Below the pieces are notes generated by a model. The model saw only the letters and a program-made list of their open reading frames with translations. It was not told the DNA's origin and did not search any database. The translations under genes and the position numbers were made by a program. Positions 6,572 to 27,931 of a stretch of DNA of 28,313 bases are shown here, piece by piece. Origin of the DNA: a virus; the IMG/VR virus record IMGVR_UViG_3300035698_001462, positions 1 to 28,313 of that record, one strand, 5' to 3'. Numbering within the stretch: the stretch's first letter is position 1; the number at the start of each line of letters is the position of its first letter.

Positions 6572-6777
6572 TGGGAAAAGGAACAAAGACAGCTAAGGCA
6601 CCACCAGTACCAGACCCTGTACCAACTCCAACTCAGGTTGACGAGGATATTAAATTGAAAGACCAAGCTAAGAGAAGGCAGAGAATACAAGCTGCTGGCA
6701 GGGGTGGCACAATCTTAACTGAGATAAACAAGCAATCACAAGGTTCAGCTTTGTTACTTGGAAGGTCAACAGCATGA
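6571..6777 (+). CDS. connector-region small protein, RGGTILT type
   Basis: This encodes 68 residues: a proline-rich N-terminus (KAPPVPDPVPTPTQVDED), a basic helix (KLKDQAKRRQRIQAAG), then RGGTILTEI and a C-terminal ALLLGRS. Short proteins with a proline-rich start, a basic helix, R-G-x-x-T-I-L-T and a final T-L-L-G occur directly before podovirus portal genes. Their role is unknown but presumably connected with head assembly. Here the gene overlaps the portal start as ATGA, which fits that context. Confidence 0.7.
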   Translation: MGKGTKTAKAPPVPDPVPTPTQVDEDIKLKDQAKRRQRIQAAGRGGTILTEINKQSQGSALLLGRSTA

Positions 6778-8474
6778 ATGAAACTAATCTTGCTAGTAAA
6801 TTACGACTTAGGATGAAACAACTCGAAGAGGTTAAGCAACTCTATGAAGATCGTGACTATGATATTGCGCGATATGTAAATCCACGACGTGAGCTATTAA
6901 AAGACTCCCAGAGATATGATGACAGAGGTAAGGTAAGAGGTAAAAGGTCTTACAGTGGTGTACCTTCGTCTGCGCTAAGTGTATGGGTAGATGGTATGCA
7001 GGGTCACATGGTATCTCAATCTTTGAAATGGTTCCGCAATGTAATCAACGATAAGAGAATAAACGATATAGACGAAGTACAACAGTATCTACAGAACTAC
7101 GACGAGGCTATGTACGGTGAGTATAACAACTCAAACTTCTATGCAATACTAGGTGAGTGGTTCAGAGATGCTGGCTCTATAGGAACTGCTACACTATTTA
7201 CAGAAGAGGATATGAGCAGGGAAGTAGCTGTGCATATCCCAATCCACCCAAGAGAGGTGTTCATCTCTGAAGATAGGTATGGAGAGGTTGATACAGTATT
7301 CAGGAAGTTTTTCTTAACAGCTAAACAGGCAATACAGAAGTTTGGTGAAGACAAACTAAGCAAGAACATAGTAGATAATGCAAAGGAAAATCCAGAAAAG
7401 AAACATGAATTCATTCACGCTGTATACCCGAATGACGATTTAATGTTTGGTAGTATCCTGTCGATACACAAGAATTTCGCATCTGTCTATCTCGAAGCTA
7501 ATGTCACTGGCCCGATTGAAGATGGTGATGGAACGGTACAGAGGTCTGGCTATGACTTGAATCCATATTCTGTATGGCGATTAAGAAAGAACTCAGATGA
7601 GATTTACGGATATTCTCCTGCTGCTGATGCAATGGTATCAATTAAAAAAGCACACCAGATGTCAAAGAATATTTTAAAAGCTTCTCACATGGCGGTTGCT
7701 CCTGCACTTAATGTACCAGAACACATGCGAGGTCATACGAGGATAGAACCAGATGGCCATAACTACTATGAACGAAACGGCGATACGGTATCTGTTATCA
7801 ATACTGGTATAAACTACCCCATAGCAATAGACAGAGAGAAAGAAATACAAAGAATTATCGAAGATGCCTACAGGGTAGAGTTCTTCCTTATCCTTGCAAG
7901 AGCAGAACGCGAAATGACAGCTACTGAGATTATGGAAAGACAGTCTGAGAAATCAGTTCTTCTTGGCCCGCAAGTTGGTAGGTTAGAAAGAGAAGGTCTT
8001 GCTAAATCAAATAACAACGTCCACGAGATAGCTGATAAGGCAGGAAGATTACCAGAGCCGCCACAGGTTCTTATAGACGCTTTTGAGGAATCTAAAGCTA
8101 GAGGTGGCAGAAAGATTAAAATAGAGCAGGTCTTTACCGGCCCACTCGCACAGGCACAGAGAAGGCTATTCCTTCTGCAACCAGTAGAAAGTGGATTGAA
8201 TAAACTTGCACAGGCGTCTGCGGTATATCCTAAAGCATTAGATAGAGTACACCCAGACAGGTTAGCAGAGTATATCCTGGACTCTACAGACTTCCCACAG
8301 TCAGTTATGAGAACAGATCAGGAACTAAAGGACATGCGAGATAAGGAAGCGGCAGAACGCGCACAGGCACAGCAACAGCAACAGTTACAGGGTATTGCAG
8401 ACGCAGTTCCAAAGCTTCAGAGAAAATCCGAAGTAGGTTCACCAATGGAAACTATTGAGGGACAATTAGCATGA
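6774..8474 (+). CDS. portal (head-to-tail connector) protein
   Basis: This 566-residue protein matches the T7-type head-to-tail connecting portal family in length and layout. It forms the dodecameric ring at the special vertex through which DNA enters and leaves, and it anchors the tail. Visible family features are an N-terminal helical segment with R-x-x-x-Y-E-D-R-D-Y-D-I-A-R-Y-V-N-P-R (about 20-38), the stretch SYSGVPSSALSVWVDGMQG (59-77) followed by SLKWFRNV, the wing region GSIGTATLF, HPREVFISED and the helical crown. The C-terminus carries a glutamine/alanine-rich helix (ERAQAQQQQQLQGIADA). It is translationally coupled to the genes on both sides. Confidence 0.9.
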   Translation: MNETNLASKLRLRMKQLEEVKQLYEDRDYDIARYVNPRRELLKDSQRYDDRGKVRGKRSYSGVPSSALSVWVDGMQGHMVSQSLKWFRNVINDKRINDIDEVQQYLQNYDEAMYGEYNNSNFYAILGEWFRDAGSIGTATLFTEEDMSREVAVHIPIHPREVFISEDRYGEVDTVFRKFFLTAKQAIQKFGEDKLSKNIVDNAKENPEKKHEFIHAVYPNDDLMFGSILSIHKNFASVYLEANVTGPIEDGDGTVQRSGYDLNPYSVWRLRKNSDEIYGYSPAADAMVSIKKAHQMSKNILKASHMAVAPALNVPEHMRGHTRIEPDGHNYYERNGDTVSVINTGINYPIAIDREKEIQRIIEDAYRVEFFLILARAEREMTATEIMERQSEKSVLLGPQVGRLEREGLAKSNNNVHEIADKAGRLPEPPQVLIDAFEESKARGGRKIKIEQVFTGPLAQAQRRLFLLQPVESGLNKLAQASAVYPKALDRVHPDRLAEYILDSTDFPQSVMRTDQELKDMRDKEAAERAQAQQQQQLQGIADAVPKLQRKSEVGSPMETIEGQLA

Positions 8475-10375: not shown

Positions 10376-11410
10376 ATGGCTACTAATACAGTAACAAGTC
10401 GCGAAAGTTTACTTGGCGCGGCTAAACAGACTCACAACAACGAGATAATCGACGTTGCAGAAGTCTTAAATGAAACAAACGATGTTGTTGCAGACGCTAT
10501 TGTTCAACGTGGAAATGATATTACATCTCATGTAGTAACACGCAGAACTGCACTTCCGGCAGTAAATTGGGTTAAGGCCGGTAATGGTTGGAACGCAACC
10601 GTTGGTCTTACTAATCAGGTTCGTGAAGAAATGGGTATGTTGAAAGCCCGTTATTTGTGTCCTGAAGATGTTATGCGACTTCAGCCGAATCCCGCTAAAT
10701 ACAGGTCTAATCAGGAACGTGCTTATATTGAGTCTATGGGACAGGAAGTTGCCAATACCCTTATGGGTAACGTAAGTTCTGGTGCATTAGACCCAACTAC
10801 AACACCTCCAGAAGAGTTTGCTGGATTCCAGTACAGACTTGCTTCGATAAGTGCCGATCCTACTAAGTATTGTGTTAATAACGGCAATACAACTGGTTCG
10901 GATAACACTTCTATCTACTTTGTTCAGTGGAAACCTGATGGAGTCTATCTGATTCATCCTCGTAATACTGACGGTGGTGGTCTAAAGAAAAAGGACGAAG
11001 GCCGTATTTACACTTCTGGCGATAACTCAATTGCCTCAGCTTCAGCGGCTAATCCTAACCCAACCAATTCACTCTGGGCTTATGTAACAGAGTTTAGCTG
11101 GGATGTTGGTCTTTGCGTTGAAGATGGCAGATGTGTAAAGCGTCTGTGTAATATTGACAGCGTTTCTACTGAGACACATACCTTGAATGAAGATTACATC
11201 ATCCAGATTAGAAACAACTTCAAGGGTAATTCCACTATCTCTATGTATGTTAATGAAACCGTGTATACCCAATTGCAGATTCTCGCTAAGGACAAAATGA
11301 ACGTCCAGTGGGGTGAGAACAACCCGTTTGGTAAACCTCAATTGTACTTCCTTGACATGCCGATACGTCGTTGTGACGCTATCACAAATGCCGAGGCAAC
11401 ACTTTCTTAA
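10376..11410 (+). CDS. major capsid protein, Bbp17-like
   Basis: This 344-residue protein forms the icosahedral shell. It shows the opening of the BPP-1 type HK97-fold capsid family: D-V-A-E-V-L-N-E-T-N-D-V-V-A-D-A (26-41), then GNDITSHVVTRRTALPAVNW (47-66). Later it has an R-x-x-Q-E-R-A-Y-I-E-S-M-G-Q-E block (105-119), an EEFAGFQYR segment, NTTGSDNTSIYFVQWKPDGV (about 169-188), GLCVEDGRCVKRLCNID and a C-terminal DMPIRRCDAI strand typical of the final P-domain. A perfect AAAGGAG ribosome binding site and the structured leader indicate high expression. Cysteines are unusually frequent for a capsid protein, but pairing cannot be judged. Confidence 0.9.
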   Translation: MATNTVTSRESLLGAAKQTHNNEIIDVAEVLNETNDVVADAIVQRGNDITSHVVTRRTALPAVNWVKAGNGWNATVGLTNQVREEMGMLKARYLCPEDVMRLQPNPAKYRSNQERAYIESMGQEVANTLMGNVSSGALDPTTTPPEEFAGFQYRLASISADPTKYCVNNGNTTGSDNTSIYFVQWKPDGVYLIHPRNTDGGGLKKKDEGRIYTSGDNSIASASAANPNPTNSLWAYVTEFSWDVGLCVEDGRCVKRLCNIDSVSTETHTLNEDYIIQIRNNFKGNSTISMYVNETVYTQLQILAKDKMNVQWGENNPFGKPQLYFLDMPIRRCDAITNAEATLS

Positions 11411-17195: not shown

Positions 17196-20100
17196 ATGCC
17201 AAAAACAAACGAAATCATACAAGCTCTTAATTCTGGCGAACTTGATCCGAAGCTTAATTCAAGGATCGACCAGCAGAAATATCATATGGGTTGTCGCCAG
17301 ATGCAGAACTTCTATCCATTAATTTATGGTGGAGCAGAGCGAAGACCTGGAACACAATTCATAGCCTCGCAGAAAACCCAGACAGCAAAAGGAATGGTAG
17401 TAGGCTTTGGCCATTCAGTTGACGATACCTATGTTCTGTTATTTGAGAATCAAGTCATAAGAGTATTCAAAGACGGCGCACAAGTCTTAACTGGCGCCGG
17501 TACTGAGGTTGACGCTACGTACGCCGCTGCTGGTACGGTTATCTCACACTGGAAGATGAATGATAACACTTCAAATACAGCAGTAGATGATACAGCGGCA
17601 AACTACGACGGAGTAGCAACAGCAAACACATCAGTTTTACATGAAACTGGCAAAGTTGGGACTGGATGTTTAGATTTAGCTGGCCAGTATGCAATAATCT
17701 TAACAGGTGGGGCTGGGGCTGGTCTGACTTTCGTAGAGGGAGTTGACGGAACTTTCAGTATAGCTGGATGGGTTAGAGTTACAAATACCGGTACGATACA
17801 AACGATAATGGCTAAGTGGGACGAAACTACGGGATCACAGGCAAGGGAATGGAAGCTCATACTAGATGAAACAAACCATCTTAAGATGTGTATAGCCGAT
17901 GAAAGTTTACTGCTTGATTCAGATTTGGTTGCTCATTGGAAATTAAATGACAGTGCAGATTCAACAACAGTAATAGATGCGACTGGAAGTCACAATGGAG
18001 TAATGGATGATGAGGGGGATAATTATACATCTACACATAGCGTAACTGGTAAAATAAATAATGCTATAGATTTCGATGGAACCAATGATAGAATTAGTGT
18101 AGCAGATGCAGATGATTTAAGTTTTGGTGACGCTTCTGACGACAGTCCATTTTCTATAGCTGCATGGATTAACATGAATGATGCCACAACTTTTCCGATT
18201 CTTAGTAAGACCCAAAATGCTGCTGATGAATACTTGTTTTGGGTTGATAAAGACGACAAACTTCGTTTATCGTTATTTGACCATGATACAAATGTTCGCA
18301 TTAGTCGAAAGTATAATACTGCTATTACAGCACAAGAAGGTTCATGGATTCATGTTACAGCCACATATGATGCATCTGAAACATCCGCAGGAATAAAACT
18401 GTATATAAATGGAGCGTTAAAAACGGGTACATCTGATGATGGCGGCGGATACACAGCAATGCAAAACGAGGCAACTGATGTTTATATTGGCTTTACAGAC
18501 CAGTCGATTGGCGATGCAACAAACAGATATGCAAATGGTAAAATAGACAATGTAATGTTATTTAATAAAGAACTTACACAGGAAGAAGTAACTGCTCTTT
18601 ACAATTCCGATGCAGGAACAGAAGATTTAAGTTCACAATTTGCAAGTTCAGTAACAGACAACGCACTAAGCACTGGCTGGCGATATGTAGCAATGACATA
18701 TGATGGAGATCACGTCTCTTGGACTGGAGCAACTGCCGCTAATTATATCTCTTTGTATGTAGATTCAGCCGCCGCAGATGCAACCGCTACTAATCTATCT
18801 ACTTATGGAACAATGGAAGATACAGTCGCACAAACAAGAATAGGCGCACAAGAATCTTCGGCAGGAGCTATAGAAAAAATATTCGGCAGTAGAATAGATA
18901 ATCTAGCAATATTCAGTACAGTATTAAGTGCTGCAAACGTATTATCTCTTTATGACGCAACTGCGGAATATGAAATAGAAACACCATACCTAACTGCCGA
19001 CCTATTAGGCTTGGATATAAAGCAAAGTGCAGATGCAATGTTTATTGCTCATGACGACTACGAGCCTAGAAGACTTGAAAGATTGGGAGACGACGACTGG
19101 ACACTATCTGCTGAGGATATTCAGGATGGTCCATTTAGGAATGAAAACACAGATACAGACAAGACAATCGTAGCTTCGGCAACTACTGGTTCAGTTACAT
19201 TAACAGCGGTAGGACATGCACCGTTCAAATCGGGAACAACTGCCGGACATGCACCGAGTGGAAGTGTTACAACATCTAAATCTCAAACAGGAACATTATT
19301 CAAATTAGTTCAGAACGTATCGGGAACCGATGCTAGTATAGGTGAGACACTTAACTCAACGACGGCAGATGCCGTTACAAGCACACTTGCAGTATCAAAG
19401 GGTATTACATGGGACTTTACTACAAATGGAACATGGGGAACAGGTGGGCCATCTACTATTGTCCTTGAAAGAAGCTACGATTCAGGAACAACTTACGAGA
19501 CGGTAGCAACGGTATCTTCCTTGGCGAATAAGAATATAGACACCTCCGAAACAGAAGAATTCTCAGATGCTATTTATAGGGCCAGAGTTTCAGATGGGAC
19601 GGGTACAGGAGATGCAAGTATACAGATTTCCATACGAGATACTTCCCATATTGGGATAGTTGAGATAACATCAGTAACATCACCTACCGTTGCGGTTGGT
19701 ACAGTCTTAAAAACACTAGCCTCAACTGACCTAACTCACAGATGGTCAGAAGGTGCATGGGGTAATTGGAGAGGTTGGCCTAGAACGGTTGAGATTTCCC
19801 CTGAAGAGCGCGTCACGTACTCTGGTTCCGTCTCTAAGCCATTAACTTCATGGGGGAGTGCTGTTGGAGAGTTTAAGACGTTCAAGGCTGGTACGGCAGA
19901 TGACGACGCTATAACGCAAACACTGATCGGTTCTGGTGAGCAGAATATAATCCAATGGGCGGTTCCCAGAACGTCTCTTATGTTGGGAACTGTTGGTGGT
20001 GAGCATTTACTGGGCGCATCCAGTGCAGATGAGGCCCTTACGCCTACTAACGTATCAGCTAAACTAAAGGGAACTCGTGGAAGTGAGAGATTACAAGCCA

Positions 20101-21698
20101 TGCTTGTCAATGACTCTATCCTATTCCTACAGCGAGGTGGCAGAAAAGTCAGGGAACTGTCAAATATTGACACTTTCGATGCTTCTAACTACAGAGCAGA
20201 TGATCTTACAGTATTTTCAAGTCATATCACAGAATCGGGAATAGTAGACTGGGCATACCAAAGAAGTCCTGACCCGATGTTATGGTGCGTTAGAGATGAT
20301 GGTGAAATAGCCGTAATGATGTACGAGAAACAGCAAGACGTATTTAGCTGGTCAAGGATAGTCCTCTCTGGAACAGATGCTAAGGCTGAGTCGGTTGCAG
20401 TGATTTACGGCGGTGCAAGCAAGGAAGATGAGGTTTGGATTACAGTTAGTCGTACAGTAAATAGTTCAACAGTACGAAATGTAGAACGATTCAAGGCTAG
20501 AGATTGGGGTTCAACTCTTGCTGATGCTTTCTTTATTGATTCTGGCCTTACTGATACAGGTGGAACTGCAACAATATCAGGATTAGACCACTTAGAAGGC
20601 GAAACCGTTCAGGTATTTGGGGATGGGAAAGAACAGACAACCAAAGTTGTAATTCCGACAGCAATAAACCACTGGTTAATGAACGAGACTACCGCCACCA
20701 CAACAATATCTGATGCAGAAGGAAGCGATGACGGAACTTCTGCCAACAACGCAAGTACAATGACAGTTACAGGTAAAATAGGAACTGCGCTGGAATTTAA
20801 CGGAACGGACGATGTTATTGTAGTCACCGATTCTACTACACTTGATTTTTCAACTGCGCTTTCAGTTTTCGCATGGATAAAACCATCTTCCCTTGGTAAT
20901 GCCGATGGTATAGTAACGAAATATTTGTCTGTTGGTGATAAAAGAGAGTGGGCTTTTACTCCAATTGGAGTTAGTGGTTCAAGTGGAAAGCTGGTAGTAA
21001 CTTTGGGGGTTTCAGGCGGATCCGCAACAACAACAAAACAAACAACAGATGATTTAGTTGTAGCTAATGGGACATGGTCTCACGTTGGATTCACTTATAA
21101 TGCAGGCGTAGTCAAGATTTACGTTGACGGAGTTGTAGTTGACTCTACTAAAATAGGAACACACATAACATCCATCAATAACGAAGCTGTTGATTTAGAA
21201 ATAGGTAGATTTAATAATGGTACTTATTTTGACGGCATAATTGACGATGTACGAATTTACGATAAGGTTCTAACGACTTCTGTAATTGGTGCTTTATATA
21301 ATTCTGGCGACGGAACAGCTTTGCTTGGTGGTGAAATAACTATTGATACTGCCGCTTCAACAGCACAAGTTGGACTTGGATATGACACAACATCCATTAT
21401 AGAGCCGATGAAACTCGATATAGAGGGTTTAGGCCTGACGATACAAAAGAAAGTCACAGAAGGAACGCTAACATTCTACAAGACAATGGCAGGTCAGTGG
21501 GGTAATTCTACCAGTAATATGTATGCACTTAAATACGAAGGTGACGGTTCAGTTACAGGAGAACTCTACACAGGTGATATTACAATACCATTCGACGGTG
21601 GATATACCAGAAGTGGCGATGTAATAATAAGACCTACAGGGCCGACACCGATGACAATTCTATCACTTACATTAGATGTAGGAGTACACAGTTACTAA
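17196..21698 (+). CDS. nozzle (tail tubular protein B, gp12-like) with three LamG inserts
   Basis: This 1500-residue protein is about twice the usual size. The nozzle scaffold is seen at 1-105 (ALNSGELDPKLNSRIDQQKY, FYPLIYGGAERRPGTQFIAS, VIRVFKDGAQVLTG), at 592-660 (YEIETPYLTADLLGLDIKQS and HDDYEPRRLERLGDD), at about 840-1150 (WRGWPRTVEISPEERVTYSG, GTRGSERLQAMLVNDSILFL, LDHLEGETVQVFGDGK) and at 1379-1500. LamG 1 begins at 115 (ISHWKMND) and stops near 240. A complete LamG 2 occupies about 243-477 (LVAHWKLND, DFDGTNDRIS, FSIAAWINM, GSWIHVTATYD, KIDNVMLFNKEL, ALYNSD). The missing half of LamG 1 then follows at 478-590 (TGWRYVAMTYDGD, SLYVDS, RIDNLAIFSTVL, SLYDA). LamG 3 is at 1155-1373 (INHWLMNE to GALYNSG). 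The nozzle closes the tail tube; LamG domains usually bind glycans or proteins. Confidence 0.85.
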   Translation: MPKTNEIIQALNSGELDPKLNSRIDQQKYHMGCRQMQNFYPLIYGGAERRPGTQFIASQKTQTAKGMVVGFGHSVDDTYVLLFENQVIRVFKDGAQVLTGAGTEVDATYAAAGTVISHWKMNDNTSNTAVDDTAANYDGVATANTSVLHETGKVGTGCLDLAGQYAIILTGGAGAGLTFVEGVDGTFSIAGWVRVTNTGTIQTIMAKWDETTGSQAREWKLILDETNHLKMCIADESLLLDSDLVAHWKLNDSADSTTVIDATGSHNGVMDDEGDNYTSTHSVTGKINNAIDFDGTNDRISVADADDLSFGDASDDSPFSIAAWINMNDATTFPILSKTQNAADEYLFWVDKDDKLRLSLFDHDTNVRISRKYNTAITAQEGSWIHVTATYDASETSAGIKLYINGALKTGTSDDGGGYTAMQNEATDVYIGFTDQSIGDATNRYANGKIDNVMLFNKELTQEEVTALYNSDAGTEDLSSQFASSVTDNALSTGWRYVAMTYDGDHVSWTGATAANYISLYVDSAAADATATNLSTYGTMEDTVAQTRIGAQESSAGAIEKIFGSRIDNLAIFSTVLSAANVLSLYDATAEYEIETPYLTADLLGLDIKQSADAMFIAHDDYEPRRLERLGDDDWTLSAEDIQDGPFRNENTDTDKTIVASATTGSVTLTAVGHAPFKSGTTAGHAPSGSVTTSKSQTGTLFKLVQNVSGTDASIGETLNSTTADAVTSTLAVSKGITWDFTTNGTWGTGGPSTIVLERSYDSGTTYETVATVSSLANKNIDTSETEEFSDAIYRARVSDGTGTGDASIQISIRDTSHIGIVEITSVTSPTVAVGTVLKTLASTDLTHRWSEGAWGNWRGWPRTVEISPEERVTYSGSVSKPLTSWGSAVGEFKTFKAGTADDDAITQTLIGSGEQNIIQWAVPRTSLMLGTVGGEHLLGASSADEALTPTNVSAKLKGTRGSERLQAMLVNDSILFLQRGGRKVRELSNIDTFDASNYRADDLTVFSSHITESGIVDWAYQRSPDPMLWCVRDDGEIAVMMYEKQQDVFSWSRIVLSGTDAKAESVAVIYGGASKEDEVWITVSRTVNSSTVRNVERFKARDWGSTLADAFFIDSGLTDTGGTATISGLDHLEGETVQVFGDGKEQTTKVVIPTAINHWLMNETTATTTISDAEGSDDGTSANNASTMTVTGKIGTALEFNGTDDVIVVTDSTTLDFSTALSVFAWIKPSSLGNADGIVTKYLSVGDKREWAFTPIGVSGSSGKLVVTLGVSGGSATTTKQTTDDLVVANGTWSHVGFTYNAGVVKIYVDGVVVDSTKIGTHITSINNEAVDLEIGRFNNGTYFDGIIDDVRIYDKVLTTSVIGALYNSGDGTALLGGEITIDTAASTAQVGLGYDTTSIIEPMKLDIEGLGLTIQKKVTEGTLTFYKTMAGQWGNSTSNMYALKYEGDGSVTGELYTGDITIPFDGGYTRSGDVIIRPTGPTPMTILSLTLDVGVHSY

Positions 21699-21725: not shown

Positions 21726-22226
21726 GTGTTAGGCGCAATAATCGTTGCATTAATGACAATAGGTGGTGGTATACAAGCTTACGGCCAATACCAGCAAGGC
21801 AAAGCCGCTGAAGCACAGGGTAAAGCTGAACAGGAACTAGCTAACTATAACGCGAAACTAAAAGAACGTGAAGCTGACGCTGAACTTGAAAGGTCAAGAG
21901 CAGAAGCTAAACAGTTCGAGCGTGAAGGAAGATACCTACAAGGCGAGCAGAAGGTTGCTATTGCCAAGGGCGGGGTTCTAGCTACAGAAGGATCGCCAGC
22001 ACTTCTCCTGGAAGAGACTGAAAGAGATTTAGAACTCGACAGACTTGCGATATTAAAAGAAGGCTTTCTTGCCCAATCATTTAGAAAGACGGAAGCAGAA
22101 GGACTCAAGTTTAGCGGTAGAGCTGCCAAGGCTAGAGGCCAGAATATCAAAACTGCTTCCAGATTCCAAGCTGCCGGAACTTTACTCACAACTGCTGGCT
22201 CTGCTGGAGTTGCGAGCAGATTATAA
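21726..22226 (+). CDS. internal virion protein, T7 gp14-like
   Basis: The start is GTG, 7 bases after AAGGAG; an overlapping ATG at 21724 leads straight into a stop. The product has 166 residues with an N-terminal hydrophobic, glycine-rich segment (MLGAIIVALMTIGGGIQAYG), a long alanine/glutamate-rich helix (about 21-75: KAAEAQGKAEQELANYNAKL onward), then AIAKGGVLATEGSPALLLEE (about 79-98) and further helices. The G-x-x-x-x-x-G-S-P motif after a long helix is typical of gp14-type ejection proteins, which leave the virion first and insert in the outer membrane. It is the first of three internal protein genes. Confidence 0.75.
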   Translation: MLGAIIVALMTIGGGIQAYGQYQQGKAAEAQGKAEQELANYNAKLKEREADAELERSRAEAKQFEREGRYLQGEQKVAIAKGGVLATEGSPALLLEETERDLELDRLAILKEGFLAQSFRKTEAEGLKFSGRAAKARGQNIKTASRFQAAGTLLTTAGSAGVASRL

Positions 22227-22260: not shown

Positions 22261-23958
22261 ATGCCTCCATTACCAACATATAGAAAAAAGAGATTGCCAA
22301 GTACGAATGTAGGAGCTGCACCACTTCCTTTAGATGCCGCTAATGTGGCTGGTGGCGCAATAGGGCAAGGTTTGTCTGCATTTGGTGGCGGGGTTAGTGA
22401 TGTCGGTGGTTCGTTGTTTAAGATAGTACAAGATGACATGCAAAACAAAGACTCCATTGCCACTACTAGATACAACCAGATAATGCAGAACGCTAAAATT
22501 AAACATGAGGCGTTCAGGGAATCCGTTGGCGATGAAACTAAGTGGGAAGAAAATAGAGAACAGGTATATAACGAAGCTAAAGCTGAAGCTGATAAGCTGG
22601 TATGGGGTTCTGCTGACGGTAAATTTGGCTCGGAACTAACAACTACAGGCTTGTTAGAGAACTCCAAGAAAAGTACAGAGCTTTTCGCAATACGTAAAAG
22701 GAAAGCTGAGGCACTTGAAGTAACCAAGAAAAACTACATAGAGGCACTATCTGAACCAATAACTCCATATACTACAGAAGTCCAGAAGGCGGCAATAGAA
22801 TTGCAAATAGAAGCTTCAAGAGAGATGCGTAAAAAGACTTTAGAAAGTGAATTCGGAGAAGATGCAGTAAAATCAATACTTGAAGAAGAAGCTAAAGTAG
22901 GAGCAGATATTAGGTCTGAAAACCTTATCAATGCAACATCAAAAACAGCATTTGACGTATGGCAATCAAGTGTAACAAAAGCAGACCTAGACGGAGACTT
23001 GAACGTGGCCTTTGATGTTATACAGGCAAGCGGTATGCGCGAATCAGAAAAACAAGATGCTGAATCGGAACTTAAAAATAGGGTGACTAATCGCAGGGCA
23101 GAAAACAAGTTGCGGTTAGAGGCGGTACAAGAAGAATCGCGAGATATAATTAATAAAGCACTTTTCGACAGTAAGGACTATGAAGCTGCTAACGCCTTAA
23201 TAGAAGCGTCACCTCTTAGTGAAAAAGAACAAGGAACTTTCCTTAAATTATCTAGCCAAAGAGCCACTGCTGCTGCAAAAGGTATCCCCTTAGCGAACGA
23301 TAGGGTAGTAGAGTCTGAAATGTACGACTTATCTCTTGGTATTTGGAAGGGTAATATAACAAAGAAAGAGTTCGATACTCAGTTGCTCGCAGTAGCCGGC
23401 AAATTAGATGATACGGCTTGGAAACGAATAACTTCATCTGCGTCAAATACTCTAAAGACATCACAAGCCGAATCGCTTTCAAGGGCAAGTTCATCAGCGA
23501 AGAATGTTCTTGTGGACTTTAAGAGCGAAGACGCTTTTGCAAAGTTTATATCTGACAGTATTAAAGGATTAGAACCTGACGTAGCAAAAGCATTTGAAGA
23601 TAATGCAGTTGAAAATCGACAGTTGCAGTTCAATAGCTTAACTCAATACGATTCCGAAATCCGTGACTGGATAGCTGCTAATCCTGATAAGGTAGGCAAA
23701 GACTTCTTCCAGTACAGTGAGTCACTAAAACATGAATACTGGAATAAGAACATTGAAGACTTGCGATTACTAAGGGCGGAACAGAATAAAGAAGTTTTAT
23801 CAGAAGTAGAATTGAGTGCAGAAGAAAGAACGGAACTGTTTAATATGGTAGATGTTGTTGACAGAGACACCTTGCCTGAGTTAGAAACAATTATTAAAAC
23901 TGGTGACGTGGAACTTATAAGAAAAGCGATGGGGAGGCTGCGTGGGACAACTAAGTGA
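22261..23958 (+). CDS. internal virion protein, gp15-like
   Basis: This 565-residue protein is largely helical. The N-terminus (MPPLPTYRKKRLPSTNVGAA) and a glycine-rich segment (AGGAIGQGLSAFGGGVSDVG, about 30-49) are followed by long charged helices with many A-x-x-x-L and E-K-R patterns through to the end. No enzymatic motif is visible. The place between the gp14-like and the very large internal protein, the length and the helical make-up fit the T7 gp15 position, part of the periplasmic ejection tunnel. AAGGA lies 6 bases before the ATG. Its end overlaps the next gene by 17 bases. Confidence 0.65.
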   Translation: MPPLPTYRKKRLPSTNVGAAPLPLDAANVAGGAIGQGLSAFGGGVSDVGGSLFKIVQDDMQNKDSIATTRYNQIMQNAKIKHEAFRESVGDETKWEENREQVYNEAKAEADKLVWGSADGKFGSELTTTGLLENSKKSTELFAIRKRKAEALEVTKKNYIEALSEPITPYTTEVQKAAIELQIEASREMRKKTLESEFGEDAVKSILEEEAKVGADIRSENLINATSKTAFDVWQSSVTKADLDGDLNVAFDVIQASGMRESEKQDAESELKNRVTNRRAENKLRLEAVQEESRDIINKALFDSKDYEAANALIEASPLSEKEQGTFLKLSSQRATAAAKGIPLANDRVVESEMYDLSLGIWKGNITKKEFDTQLLAVAGKLDDTAWKRITSSASNTLKTSQAESLSRASSSAKNVLVDFKSEDAFAKFISDSIKGLEPDVAKAFEDNAVENRQLQFNSLTQYDSEIRDWIAANPDKVGKDFFQYSESLKHEYWNKNIEDLRLLRAEQNKEVLSEVELSAEERTELFNMVDVVDRDTLPELETIIKTGDVELIRKAMGRLRGTTK

Positions 23959-26900
23959 TTTATTACCAGAAAAGACTGAACAAGGTGGATTGTTAAAAGA
24001 TTTAATCCCTAATGGCACTGCTGTGGAATACGAAGGTGACAGCAGGCCTATTGATCCGAACGAAGCATCCCAAAGGGCTGGCGAGGTCTGGGATTTAACA
24101 TTAGAACAGCAAATTCCGCTAAGGGCCGGAGATAGGCATTTAGATGATGTTAAAATTGTCAAAGAGAAGCATGATAGCTCTAAGTTTTTCCGTGAAACTT
24201 ACATGCTTAATCCGGTTAGGAGAACTTTTACGCCGCCAAAAGAATCCACTTTAGATATTGACCCATTAGGAGTACCAAAAGAAGCTGTTAAGGGAGTTGC
24301 GCGATCGTTGCAAAGAGACTTCGCAGGCGGAGCTAATACTATGCTGGATTGGCTTGGTCAATTAGTTCAAGAGGGCGCAGGCGCTCTTGATTGGTGGACT
24401 AAAATTGGAGCAAAGAATAAAGACCAGATTTACAATCCTCTTGCTGAAGAAATTTTATCTGCTGGTGAATCAATATCCAATTACGGCAAAGCATGGCGTC
24501 AAGAGTGGGCGGATAGGGCGGCGAGTGGTTGGGAATCTTTCGATGAGACATTAAAGAAATCAGACCCTATTTCGTATGCAGCAGGTAAAGTCTCAGAAGG
24601 ATTAACCTCAAGTGCCATGTCTGTACTGGCAGTTTACCTGTCAGGTGGAGCAGGATCAGGAGCAATTGCGGCTAATACCGGAATACAGATAAACAGGGGT
24701 TTGGTGGCCTTGTCTTTGTTTTCGGCGGCAGGAGGCTTTGAACATGCCCAGAATGAGGACGAAAACTTCTATTGGTCAACTGCTCATGGAATCGCTGATG
24801 GCGGTATCGAATTTGGTATGGAGACTAGTTTTCTAGCAGGAGTTGGAAAAAATGCAGGGGTTTTACTTACTGGAGTAAAAGAAGGTACAGAGGAATTCTT
24901 TACTGGTATGTTGCAAAATACAAGAGCTAAGATACTTGAGAACACAAACAAGGGTATGACGGCATATGATTCAGCAAGAGAAGCTATGGTTGGTTCACTT
25001 AAACAGTCGCCGTGGGAAGTTGCGGCTGGTTTCATTGGCGGTGTTGGTATAGCCGGAGGTTCTAATCTCGTCCAGATAGTCGATAAGTCTATTGCAAAGC
25101 CAGCAGTGGAAGCTAAAAAAGCACCATTAGAGCCAGTTGTAGCCGCGCCAGTGCAAAAAGCCCCTGTTACCCCTACGGAAGCACCCCCAGTAGTTGCGGA
25201 GGCTCCTACGCCCGTTGAGGCGGTCGAGGGGAAGGTAGAAGGGCTAGAAATACTAAGCGATAAAATTATTGACGTTACAACTGAAAAGGCTGAATCCCAG
25301 ATACAGGATAAGGTATCACAGGCTAAGAGCTTGCCGAAGGCCGAACAGAAGACTATAGCAAAACAGTCCATAGCTAAAGTGAACGAAAGAATAAGTTTCA
25401 AAAAACCAAAGCAAACTATCAAGCAGAACTTTAAGAATCTCCTGTTCAAGACAGACAAGGCTTTCAGGGACGAATTCGCAGGGCTTAGGCGAGTAGTTAA
25501 GGCGGCTGATGCTGGCCCGCTTGCTCCCGCTGATGATCCTGTCCAATTGGCTATTGCCTTTACGCAGAAGTCATCCGCAAAAACACGCGGTTTTGTCATG
25601 GAAGCTACGACAGACCTTGCGGGCAACAGAAAAAGTAAGGGCCTGAAAGATATTTTCAAGCCAATAGTAGCCGATGGCGGTAAGGCCAACTTTGATAATT
25701 TCGTAACTTACGTTGTAGCGGCAAGGGATTTGCAATTACAAAGACAAGGTAAGGAAACTGGCATTGATCCAGTAGCTTCGAGGTTGGCTTTTGACGAACT
25801 AAACTCGCCTCAATTCCAGCAGGCGGCAAGAGAAGTTACGGAATGGAATCAAAAGGGGATTGATTTACTTGTCGAATCCGGCAGGATAACCACCGAATCA
25901 GGAGAAGCTATAAAGACAGCTAATCCAATATATGTACCATTCTTCAGGGAATTCACAGAAGCAGAGCAAGTTCCAGTTGGAAAAGGAAAGAAGTTTGTAC
26001 CCAAGAGGCTTAAAGGTTCTAGCCGTAAAATAGTTGACCCGATAGAGGGTATGATACAACAGATGGACGCTATTATAAGTAGCGCACAAAGGGCAGCAAT
26101 AGAACGATCGATGGCTAATCTGGCTAGCGACAATCCAGAAGCTTTAGTAGATTTCATTAAGCCTGTTAAACCACCAGTAGCACCTACTAAGTTTACTGTT
26201 AAGGAAATCAAAGCCGAACTTGAGGATATAGGCATAGATTTTTCAGGTGTAGCTGATAAAGACTTAAACGAATTACTAACTGTGTTCCGACCATCACGAT
26301 TACCACTATCACAAGGTGTTATCAAATTAACAGTAGATGGAAAGAATAAGTATTTCAAAGCTGAAAAAGAATTACTTGATGTTCTTGAAGGGACTGAGGT
26401 TTATAAATTAGGGCCGTTCTGGGATATAGTTGTAGGGAAGCCAACGAGACTTTTGAAACTTGGTGCAACTGGTTTGAATACATCATTTGGACTAGTAAGA
26501 AATCCTATAAGGGATATTCAAACATTTACCGTAACATCTGAATTCGCTAAAGCAGGGCCGTTAAGTGCAGTTGGCGGGATTCTAAAATCTGTAAAAAATG
26601 ATGTTTCTAGTATAGCAGAAAACTATGGGTTTGAAGGCATAAAACCTGATAGCGATGTGGCTAAATTTGCAGCCTTGGGCGGTGAAATGTCCGGTTTCAT
26701 CACACAAGATAGGATGGGGACTAAACACATACAGCACGAAATGCTTGCCAGTAATGGGGTTAGGTACACGATAAATACGTTCGCGCATCCAATTGACGCA
26801 CTGAGAAGTGTAGTTGGTATCACTGAAATAGGAACTCGAATCGGAGAATTTGGCCCAGCCTTGAAAGAAGGAGAGAGGTTGTATGGAAAAGGCAGTCTTT

Positions 26901-27931
26901 CAGCTTCGATATTTGCTCTCAATGCGGCACAAGATGTTACAACTAACTTCACAAGACATGGACAAATAGGTAAGCAGATAAATCAGATAATACCATTTTT
27001 TAACGCTGCAATACAAGGGCCGGATAAATTAGTAAGATCGTTCAGATCGCGTCCTTTAAAGTCAACGGCAGCAGCCGTAGCAACTCTAACGATTCCAGCC
27101 TTATTCTTCTGGTGGAAAAACAAAGATAAGGAATGGTACAAAAATATGACAGCCCACGAAAAGGCTAGCTATGTACATTTTGAATCTCCGCAAGATGAAG
27201 ATGTTGTATTCAGATTTCCAGTACCATTTGAATTAGGACATGTATTCCAAGCTATACCTGTGGCTTTCCTTGACGCTGTTCACAACGAAGACCCTAAAGA
27301 AGTTAAAAGCATTTTGGCTGCTACGCTTAAAAGTGCGAACCCTCTTGACTGGCCATCTTTAATCGGCCCTGTAATAGATATAAAAGCAAACGAAGATTTC
27401 GCTGGTAGGCCAATTGTTTCTCGTGCCAATGAAGGCAAATTGCCAGCAGATCAGTTCGGAACAAACACAACCGAGTTAATGAAGGTAATTGGTAAAACTA
27501 TCAATATGTCGCCATCGCAAATAGAACACTTAACTAATTCATATACAGGAGGCATCTACAATCGTACTGCGAGAATGCTAGAAAGCAACGATATGGAAAA
27601 GCAACCAGCAGATATACCAGTTATAGGAACACTTTTTACAAGAGACCCATTTGCACCAAGGAAACAAGTCGAGGCGTTTTACAATGAAAGGGAATTACTA
27701 AATAAGAAGTTCCAGTCCAAGAAGATCACGGTAAAGGAAGCGGCTAGGAGAGTTGCCATAAATAAAATATCTCCGTACCTATCAGTGTTCTTTGACAGAA
27801 TAAGGGATGCTAAGACTATAAATGAAAGAAAAAAGAACTGGAAGATAATAGGTACGCTTACAGAGGTCATGGATAATCTAAACATAGAGGAAACAGGAAC
27901 TAAAGTTTTCCCAGAGAGAAAAGGTAAATAA
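23942..27931 (+). CDS. large internal virion (ejection) protein with LPD38-like region
   Basis: This is a 1329-residue protein from a GTG start with GGGGAGG just upstream, overlapping the previous gene by 17 bases. Residues 1-120 are polar. About 215-375 contain small-residue hydrophobic segments (SSAMSVLAVYLSGGAGSGAI) suited to membrane insertion. About 385-435 form a proline/alanine linker (EAPPVVAEAPTPVEAVEG). A long helical region follows. From about 830 to 1090 there is a block typical of large polyvalent protein domain 38: LGATGLNTSFGLVRNPIRDI (about 838-857), then IIPFFNAAIQGPDKLVRSFR and a hydrophobic AVATLTIPALFFWW. No transglycosylase E-x-x-W/NP motif is seen, although T7 gp16 carries one. 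It probably crosses the inner membrane during DNA entry. Confidence 0.75.
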   Translation: MGQLSDLLPEKTEQGGLLKDLIPNGTAVEYEGDSRPIDPNEASQRAGEVWDLTLEQQIPLRAGDRHLDDVKIVKEKHDSSKFFRETYMLNPVRRTFTPPKESTLDIDPLGVPKEAVKGVARSLQRDFAGGANTMLDWLGQLVQEGAGALDWWTKIGAKNKDQIYNPLAEEILSAGESISNYGKAWRQEWADRAASGWESFDETLKKSDPISYAAGKVSEGLTSSAMSVLAVYLSGGAGSGAIAANTGIQINRGLVALSLFSAAGGFEHAQNEDENFYWSTAHGIADGGIEFGMETSFLAGVGKNAGVLLTGVKEGTEEFFTGMLQNTRAKILENTNKGMTAYDSAREAMVGSLKQSPWEVAAGFIGGVGIAGGSNLVQIVDKSIAKPAVEAKKAPLEPVVAAPVQKAPVTPTEAPPVVAEAPTPVEAVEGKVEGLEILSDKIIDVTTEKAESQIQDKVSQAKSLPKAEQKTIAKQSIAKVNERISFKKPKQTIKQNFKNLLFKTDKAFRDEFAGLRRVVKAADAGPLAPADDPVQLAIAFTQKSSAKTRGFVMEATTDLAGNRKSKGLKDIFKPIVADGGKANFDNFVTYVVAARDLQLQRQGKETGIDPVASRLAFDELNSPQFQQAAREVTEWNQKGIDLLVESGRITTESGEAIKTANPIYVPFFREFTEAEQVPVGKGKKFVPKRLKGSSRKIVDPIEGMIQQMDAIISSAQRAAIERSMANLASDNPEALVDFIKPVKPPVAPTKFTVKEIKAELEDIGIDFSGVADKDLNELLTVFRPSRLPLSQGVIKLTVDGKNKYFKAEKELLDVLEGTEVYKLGPFWDIVVGKPTRLLKLGATGLNTSFGLVRNPIRDIQTFTVTSEFAKAGPLSAVGGILKSVKNDVSSIAENYGFEGIKPDSDVAKFAALGGEMSGFITQDRMGTKHIQHEMLASNGVRYTINTFAHPIDALRSVVGITEIGTRIGEFGPALKEGERLYGKGSLSASIFALNAAQDVTTNFTRHGQIGKQINQIIPFFNAAIQGPDKLVRSFRSRPLKSTAAAVATLTIPALFFWWKNKDKEWYKNMTAHEKASYVHFESPQDEDVVFRFPVPFELGHVFQAIPVAFLDAVHNEDPKEVKSILAATLKSANPLDWPSLIGPVIDIKANEDFAGRPIVSRANEGKLPADQFGTNTTELMKVIGKTINMSPSQIEHLTNSYTGGIYNRTARMLESNDMEKQPADIPVIGTLFTRDPFAPRKQVEAFYNERELLNKKFQSKKITVKEAARRVAINKISPYLSVFFDRIRDAKTINERKKNWKIIGTLTEVMDNLNIEETGTKVFPERKGK

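Follow-up and report, generated by a model that had tools for sequence, protein, structure and literature searches.

A LamG domain split by a second, complete LamG domain in the tail nozzle protein of an uncultured phage

The 1500-aa tail nozzle protein encoded by a viral DNA stretch of 28,313 nucleotides (IMG/VR record IMGVR_UViG_3300035698_001462, positions 1 to 28,313; hereafter the window) carries a LamG domain that is interrupted by another, complete LamG domain. We are close to certain of the nesting itself, in which residues 116-243 and 477-590 form the two parts of the outer domain and residues 244-474 the whole of the inner one, and the split position that the outer domain shares with 12 other contigs puts the nested order far beyond chance. 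Overall, we favour (with a probability of roughly 0.8) an explanation in which the nested LamG pair occupies a slot in the nozzle backbone, is exchanged as a cassette whose inner member has been replaced by other LamG lineages, and would form arms that bind the host surface. The features of the nozzle gene are collected in Table 1.

Table 1 Features of the nozzle gene, with positions in the window and the basis of each assignment.
Feature	Residues	Position	Strand	Basis
Tail nozzle gene, gp12 / tail tubular protein B-like	1500 aa	17196..21698	+	PHROG 376, PDB 8ck1, homologue annotation
Nozzle backbone, N-terminal part	1-112	17196..17531	+	Residues 5-102 align with 8ck1 11-108
Outer LamG, first half (strands 1-8)	116-243	17541..17924	+	Splice score, half-tree with L032
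Inner LamG, complete	244-474	17925..18617	+	Pfam Laminin_G_3 5.8e-24, structural match
Outer LamG, second half (remaining strands and C-terminal helix)	477-590	18624..18965	+	Profile 73-150, half-tree
Nozzle backbone, middle part	592-1150	18969..20645	+	8ck1 alignment
Third LamG, uninterrupted, in a second slot	1153-1375	20652..21320	+	Pfam best stretch 1202-1362
Nozzle backbone, C-terminal part	1376-1500	21321..21695	+	Weak 8ck1 alignment

Judged by its sequence, the 1500-aa protein is a podophage tail nozzle. It matched PHROG 376 (‘tail protein’, E 4e-152) and PDB entry 8ck1 (‘Tail Nozzle’, Carin-1 phage; E 2e-73 by sequence and E 8e-108 by profile), while its homologues in named phages carry the annotation tail tubular protein B, and we take the gene family to be that labelled gp12 / tail tubular protein B. 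The gene stands in a neighbourhood of virion genes, namely a portal-type head-tail connector (6774-8474), a major head protein (10376-11410) and an internal virion protein (21726-22226). Farther downstream, at positions 23942-27931, lies the gene for a 1329-aa protein that contains an LPD38 domain (E 1e-34) and probably serves in ejection. The nozzle of Carin-1, a Cobetia phage, shares with the window the backbone residues 5-102, 592-678 (8ck1 110-195, adjoining the N-terminal aligned part) and 817-1126 (8ck1 285-589), and more weakly the C-terminal residues 1376-1492 (8ck1 699-821). Unlike the nozzle of the window, it lacks LamG: the counterpart of window residue 592 comes no more than two residues after its residue 108, and approximately 490 residues, nearly all of them LamG, stand in the window where 8ck1 has one or two.

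LamG domains were scored with the Pfam profile Laminin_G_3 (gathering score 27.6, profile length 151). The inner domain (residues 244-474) reached 85 bits over profile positions 2-150 of 151, while residues 115-240 alone gave no match to this profile and residues 478-590 alone gave 26 bits, which is below the gathering score and covers profile positions 73-150 only. An earlier note, made from the letters of the window, had read the region as half a LamG, a whole LamG and a second half, and had expected the two halves, once spliced, to score as one complete domain; spliced together (116-243 plus 477-590), they did rise above the cutoff, to 36.2 bits over profile positions 16-150, from values that were singly below it. 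The same splicing in nine more nested relatives gave 39-60 bits for the outer domain, compared to 66 bits for the uninterrupted LamG of L032, a relative discussed below. The motifs on which the proposed order rested were all found where the note had placed them, starting at residues 116 (ISHWKMND), 229 (LKMCIADESLL), 244 (LVAHWKLND) and 467 (ALYNSD), with TGWRYVAM at 493 and SLYDA at 584 in the second outer half and YEIETPYL at 592 after it. With the boundaries refined to 116-243, 244-474 and about 477-590, the first outer half breaks off behind the strand KMCIA, the second starts with the short strand SSVTD (483-487), and the insert is about as large as its host (231 vs 242 residues). The G+C content of the inner LamG (17925-18617) is 37%, compared to 41-45% in both outer halves and the adjoining backbone, which is a weak hint of a different source.

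Structures were predicted with AlphaFold2 for window residues 100-612 (ten nested sequences; pLDDT 73.5 and pTM 0.65, which are middling values) and for the nested nozzle L056 (twelve nested sequences; pLDDT 82.8), the latter chosen since its Pfam score is higher for the outer than for the inner domain (52.6 vs 46.7). The equivalents of inner strands 1-8 lie, in both models, in the first outer half and the remaining ones in the second, and the strand order of the outer domain corresponds one-to-one to that of the inner domain with good local confidence. In the L056 model the first-half strands lie at 13-17, 37-39, 55-57, 64-66, 83-91, 98-103, 113-117 and 123-128, and the second half comprises 376-381, 388-396, a helix at 402-408, 409-413, 420-423, 438-445, 458-465 and a helix at 471-477; the inner elements used for comparison run from 138-142 to 354-361. 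The models thus agree with the earlier claim that residues 115-240 are incomplete alone, as they assign the first eight predicted strands to 115-243 and the rest to 477-590. From the strand order, the model confidence and the phylogeny described below, we infer that the two outer halves pack together.

A structural search with the window and L056 models gave 50 listed rows, all of which align to the inner domain, whose matches filled the list. The inner LamG of the window matched domain 4 of AbnA (5hp6) with Z 19.4 over 194 residues at 2.9 Å, in line with the note’s view that it is a complete fold, and it is predicted to be a ConA-like jelly roll. The matches to AbnA and to clostridial neurotoxins concern the fold only: they have the jelly roll in common with the inner domain and imply no shared function. 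Matches from BFVD were considered as candidate nested relatives and discarded; hundreds of columns aligned but the rmsd was mostly 9-30 Å, and none of them could be claimed. An alternative arrangement would be an interleaved or domain-swapped pair, in which 116-243 folds with the C-terminal half of 244-474 and the other two pieces do likewise. The splice score alone is compatible with such a swap, since any first half spliced to any second half scores as LamG, but we regard it as very unlikely: the inner LamG models match contiguous solved ConA-like lectin domains with Z 19-20 over approximately 195-200 residues, within residues 131-377 of the models, and the history that both outer halves share with the uninterrupted domain of L032 also counts against it.

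This shared history was seen in three trees, one of complete domains (the outer ones joined from their halves), one of first halves alone and one of second halves alone. All three contained the same 14-row clade, consisting of 12 outer domains, the uninterrupted LamG of L032 and the inner LamG of L007, with support of 99/95, 97/90 and 95/96, respectively. As both half-trees give the clade that contains L032, the outer halves belong to one domain lineage that also exists uninterrupted, in L032, at the same nozzle site; the nested history proposed in the earlier note is in keeping with this, each outer half separately grouping with the L032 domain. The inner domains behaved otherwise. A single inner clade was rejected (p-AU 0.0004), and a single outer clade without L032 and the L007 inner domain was disfavoured (p 0.012). 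The inner LamG of the window falls in a group (98/93) with those of L001, L004, L005, L006 and L010, a group that also takes in the LamG at the C-terminus of a different nozzle, L013; a second inner group comprises L008, L031, L039 and L056 (96/90), while in the whole-domain tree the inner domain of L033 stands apart and that of L007 falls in the outer lineage. Going by these phylogenies, the inner domains have more than one origin. Nesting may have occurred several times, or it may have occurred once and been followed by inner replacement and loss, and either order of steps forces changes across the starred branches.

The trees also bear on whether a foreign LamG was inserted at all, as the nested order could instead have arisen within one gene by two partial duplications of the form A-A-B-B. 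The L007 inner domain, which lies within the outer lineage (99/95) and whose outer counterpart is 42-44% identical to it, looks as partial duplications would leave it. In the window and most relatives, however, the inner lineage differs from the outer and groups with the L013 LamG from another slot, identity between inner and outer domains in the window’s group is 25-37%, and the A-A-B-B route needs two matching duplications; we consider this origin unlikely and retain insertion as the preferred reading.

Relatives were gathered by three scans of viral contigs (with the protein, the nested alignment and the backbone alignment) and sorted by local profiles. Among the listed relatives whose frames hold both backbone parts, the site was empty in 50, held a non-LamG insert in 19, a nested pair in 11, an intact single LamG in three (L016, L032, L036), a LamG split by a non-LamG domain in one (L029) and a partial LamG match in one (L054), counts that are not frequencies, the backbone scan having taken the best 80 of 590 relatives. 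Relatives lacking the inner domain, which the earlier note had suggested searching for, are therefore at hand, with a single LamG in the three just named and none in at least 50 contigs. The LamGs of L032, L016 and L036 (all from IMG/VR) occupy the same slot as the nested pair but, in contrast to it, are single and uninterrupted, and both halves of the L032 domain fall in the outer lineage. Nesting beyond these 11 cases was found in the window itself and in L039, which has an extra insert in its inner LamG. L002, L011, L012 and L014 have truncated or broken frames, and what can be read of these is nested as well; L007 and L009 nearly duplicate each other. The arrangement is thus present in at least 12 other viral contigs, two of them with a further insert in the inner LamG, and the break in the outer domain falls at the same profile position (119-125 / 121-135 of 225) in all nested cases. 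An assembly chimera or a misread frame has a negligible probability: although broken frames do occur among these contigs (L011, L012, L015), the window frame is open for 1500 codons and the same order and profile position recur in more than 10 contigs from different data sets. An assembly artefact was ruled out by the many independent contigs with the same nested order.

The slot near backbone residue 110 is a general domain-exchange site in the nozzle family. Eight relatives (L027, L041, L047, L072, L084, L077, L088 and L103) have CBM5/12 domains, some of them sub-threshold, or E1_FCCH-like domains in the slot, single or repeated. In L029 (3450-6695) the nozzle LamG is interrupted elsewhere, at profile position 193; the domain inserted there is 155 residues long and matches F5/8 type C below the threshold (18.6 bits). 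In L039 (2976-7094) and L014 (7974-9176, ending at the contig end) the inner LamG has an insert after its first strands, giving three levels. The second slot of the window, which holds the third LamG, a domain not reported in the earlier note, has no insert in L001, nor in 8ck1 (near its residue 699); this third LamG matched 5hon by sequence (E 8e-08), and in the tree it stands with the LamG of L017, a non-nozzle protein (97/90). Another non-nozzle protein, L023 (7905-10370), has a LamG (33-105 plus 656-802) split around a complete LamG (235-449) that is flanked by approximately 130 and 190 residues without assigned identity, apparently a LamG inside something inside a LamG and separate from the nozzle case.

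Exchange of the pair between backbones was assessed with identity matrices over 12 nested loci, with the 300 residues after the cassette as backbone. Identities of the first and second outer halves were correlated (r 0.87), as were those of the outer and inner domains (r 0.84, Mantel p 0.0002), whereas neither the outer (r -0.05) nor the inner domain (r -0.20) followed the backbone. The window and L005, for instance, share 64% identity over the outer domain and 63% over the inner one, against 27% over the backbone, while L007 and L008 show the reverse (41%, 47% and 71%, respectively). Nested loci are scattered over the backbone tree, and the backbone closest to the window among the relatives listed, L027 (54% identical, 100/99), holds CBM5/12 in the slot instead. 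Because divergence is correlated between outer and inner domains and not with the backbone, the simplest reading of the sequences is that the nested pair would be transferred as one unit between nozzle backbones. Exchange of the inner domain, together with mobility of the pair, suggests a swappable surface-binding module.

In the explanation that we favour, the outer LamG sits in the slot near backbone residue 110, where extra domains go, and the hairpin between its strands 8 and 9 contains the inner LamG (244-474) as a whole. The data show the nesting, the slot, the swapping of the pair as a cassette among unrelated backbones and the presence of several LamG lineages as its inner member; nesting would add a second binder and leave the backbone untouched. 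The nozzle, which in T7 is a hexamer, would then display six two-domain arms outward, and these would attach to host-surface glycans or to other surface molecules when the phage adsorbs. We lean towards surface or glycan binding as the function of the pair, based on the fold class and the company of CBM5/12 domains in the slot. That the slot is mostly empty, holds CBM domains elsewhere and is exchanged independently of the backbone points to a display site for host-surface binders. A nozzle protein of a Vibrio podophage has been found to bind a host receptor (PMC7241545).

The LamG arms could also be structural, decorating or stabilising the tail or docking fibres and binding nothing on the host. 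The T7 nozzle, a hexamer at the tail end, does have a fibre dock (PMC6702177), and the CBM-like and FCCH domains in the slot might equally be packing modules. Such a role seems to us the less probable one, though by no means far-fetched: the slot is empty in most relatives listed (at least 50 contigs), indicating that its contents are dispensable for nozzle assembly, and these contents include carbohydrate-binding modules that are swapped independently of the backbone, as is typical of receptor-binding parts. To the host-binding reading we add a tentative idea, to which we give slightly less than an even chance, that the outer-LamG hairpin is a swapping receptacle in which a host-recognition domain is replaced as a LamG within a LamG, repeating inward; the inserts in the inner LamGs of L039 and L014 and the F5/8C-like domain that splits the L029 LamG point in this direction. 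If true, phages would have in this pair a mobile adhesion module, built like a Russian doll, by which tail-tip binding could be altered without harm to tail assembly.

Nested domains are common, and phage proteins with LamG domains are already known. The fold of the inner domain occurs in AbnA domain 4 (5hon) and in the N-terminal half of clostridial neurotoxin binding domains, where, unlike here, LamG-like domains are stand-alone or tandem. Two-dinucleotide-binding flavoproteins such as glutathione reductase likewise have one domain inserted into a homologue that shares its fold, but these proteins differ in fold from the present case, are enzymes and have a fixed architecture, in contrast to the exchangeable cassette described here. 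In a survey of ECOD, A1-B-A2 and A1-B1-C-B2-A2 orders were common, 65.8% of insertions joined different homologous groups and approximately a third fell within one group, and inserts were usually smaller than their hosts, with no mention of lectin or concanavalin in the main text (PMC13114784); the nozzle insert, by comparison, is about the size of its host. Our case is set apart as a variant of this known kind in that host and insert are equally large, the inner domain has been exchanged and the pair is mobile.

All nested members come from uncultured viruses. None of 50,697 records of named phages had the nested region, only a distant LamG of Winogradskyella phage Peternella_1 being matched, and a scan of genome contigs gave six distant LamG matches (24-28% identity) in which nozzle and host were not recognised. 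We know of no described LamG-in-LamG nozzle, and a search of the open-licence literature found nothing specific on nested LamG or on LamG in nozzles. The earlier note’s remark that it knew of no described nozzle with this arrangement holds to this extent, but the arrangement is not peculiar to the window, being shared by the contigs counted above.

The finding means that a phage tail part gains domains by nesting like within like, with empty, single, nested and doubly nested states found among relatives, and these states form a natural series in which the tolerance of folded domains to the insertion of an equal-sized homologue can be studied. The slot marks a site of the nozzle at which likely surface-binding modules are swapped, and the idea that nozzles, besides fibres, carry host-recognition diversity becomes directly testable.
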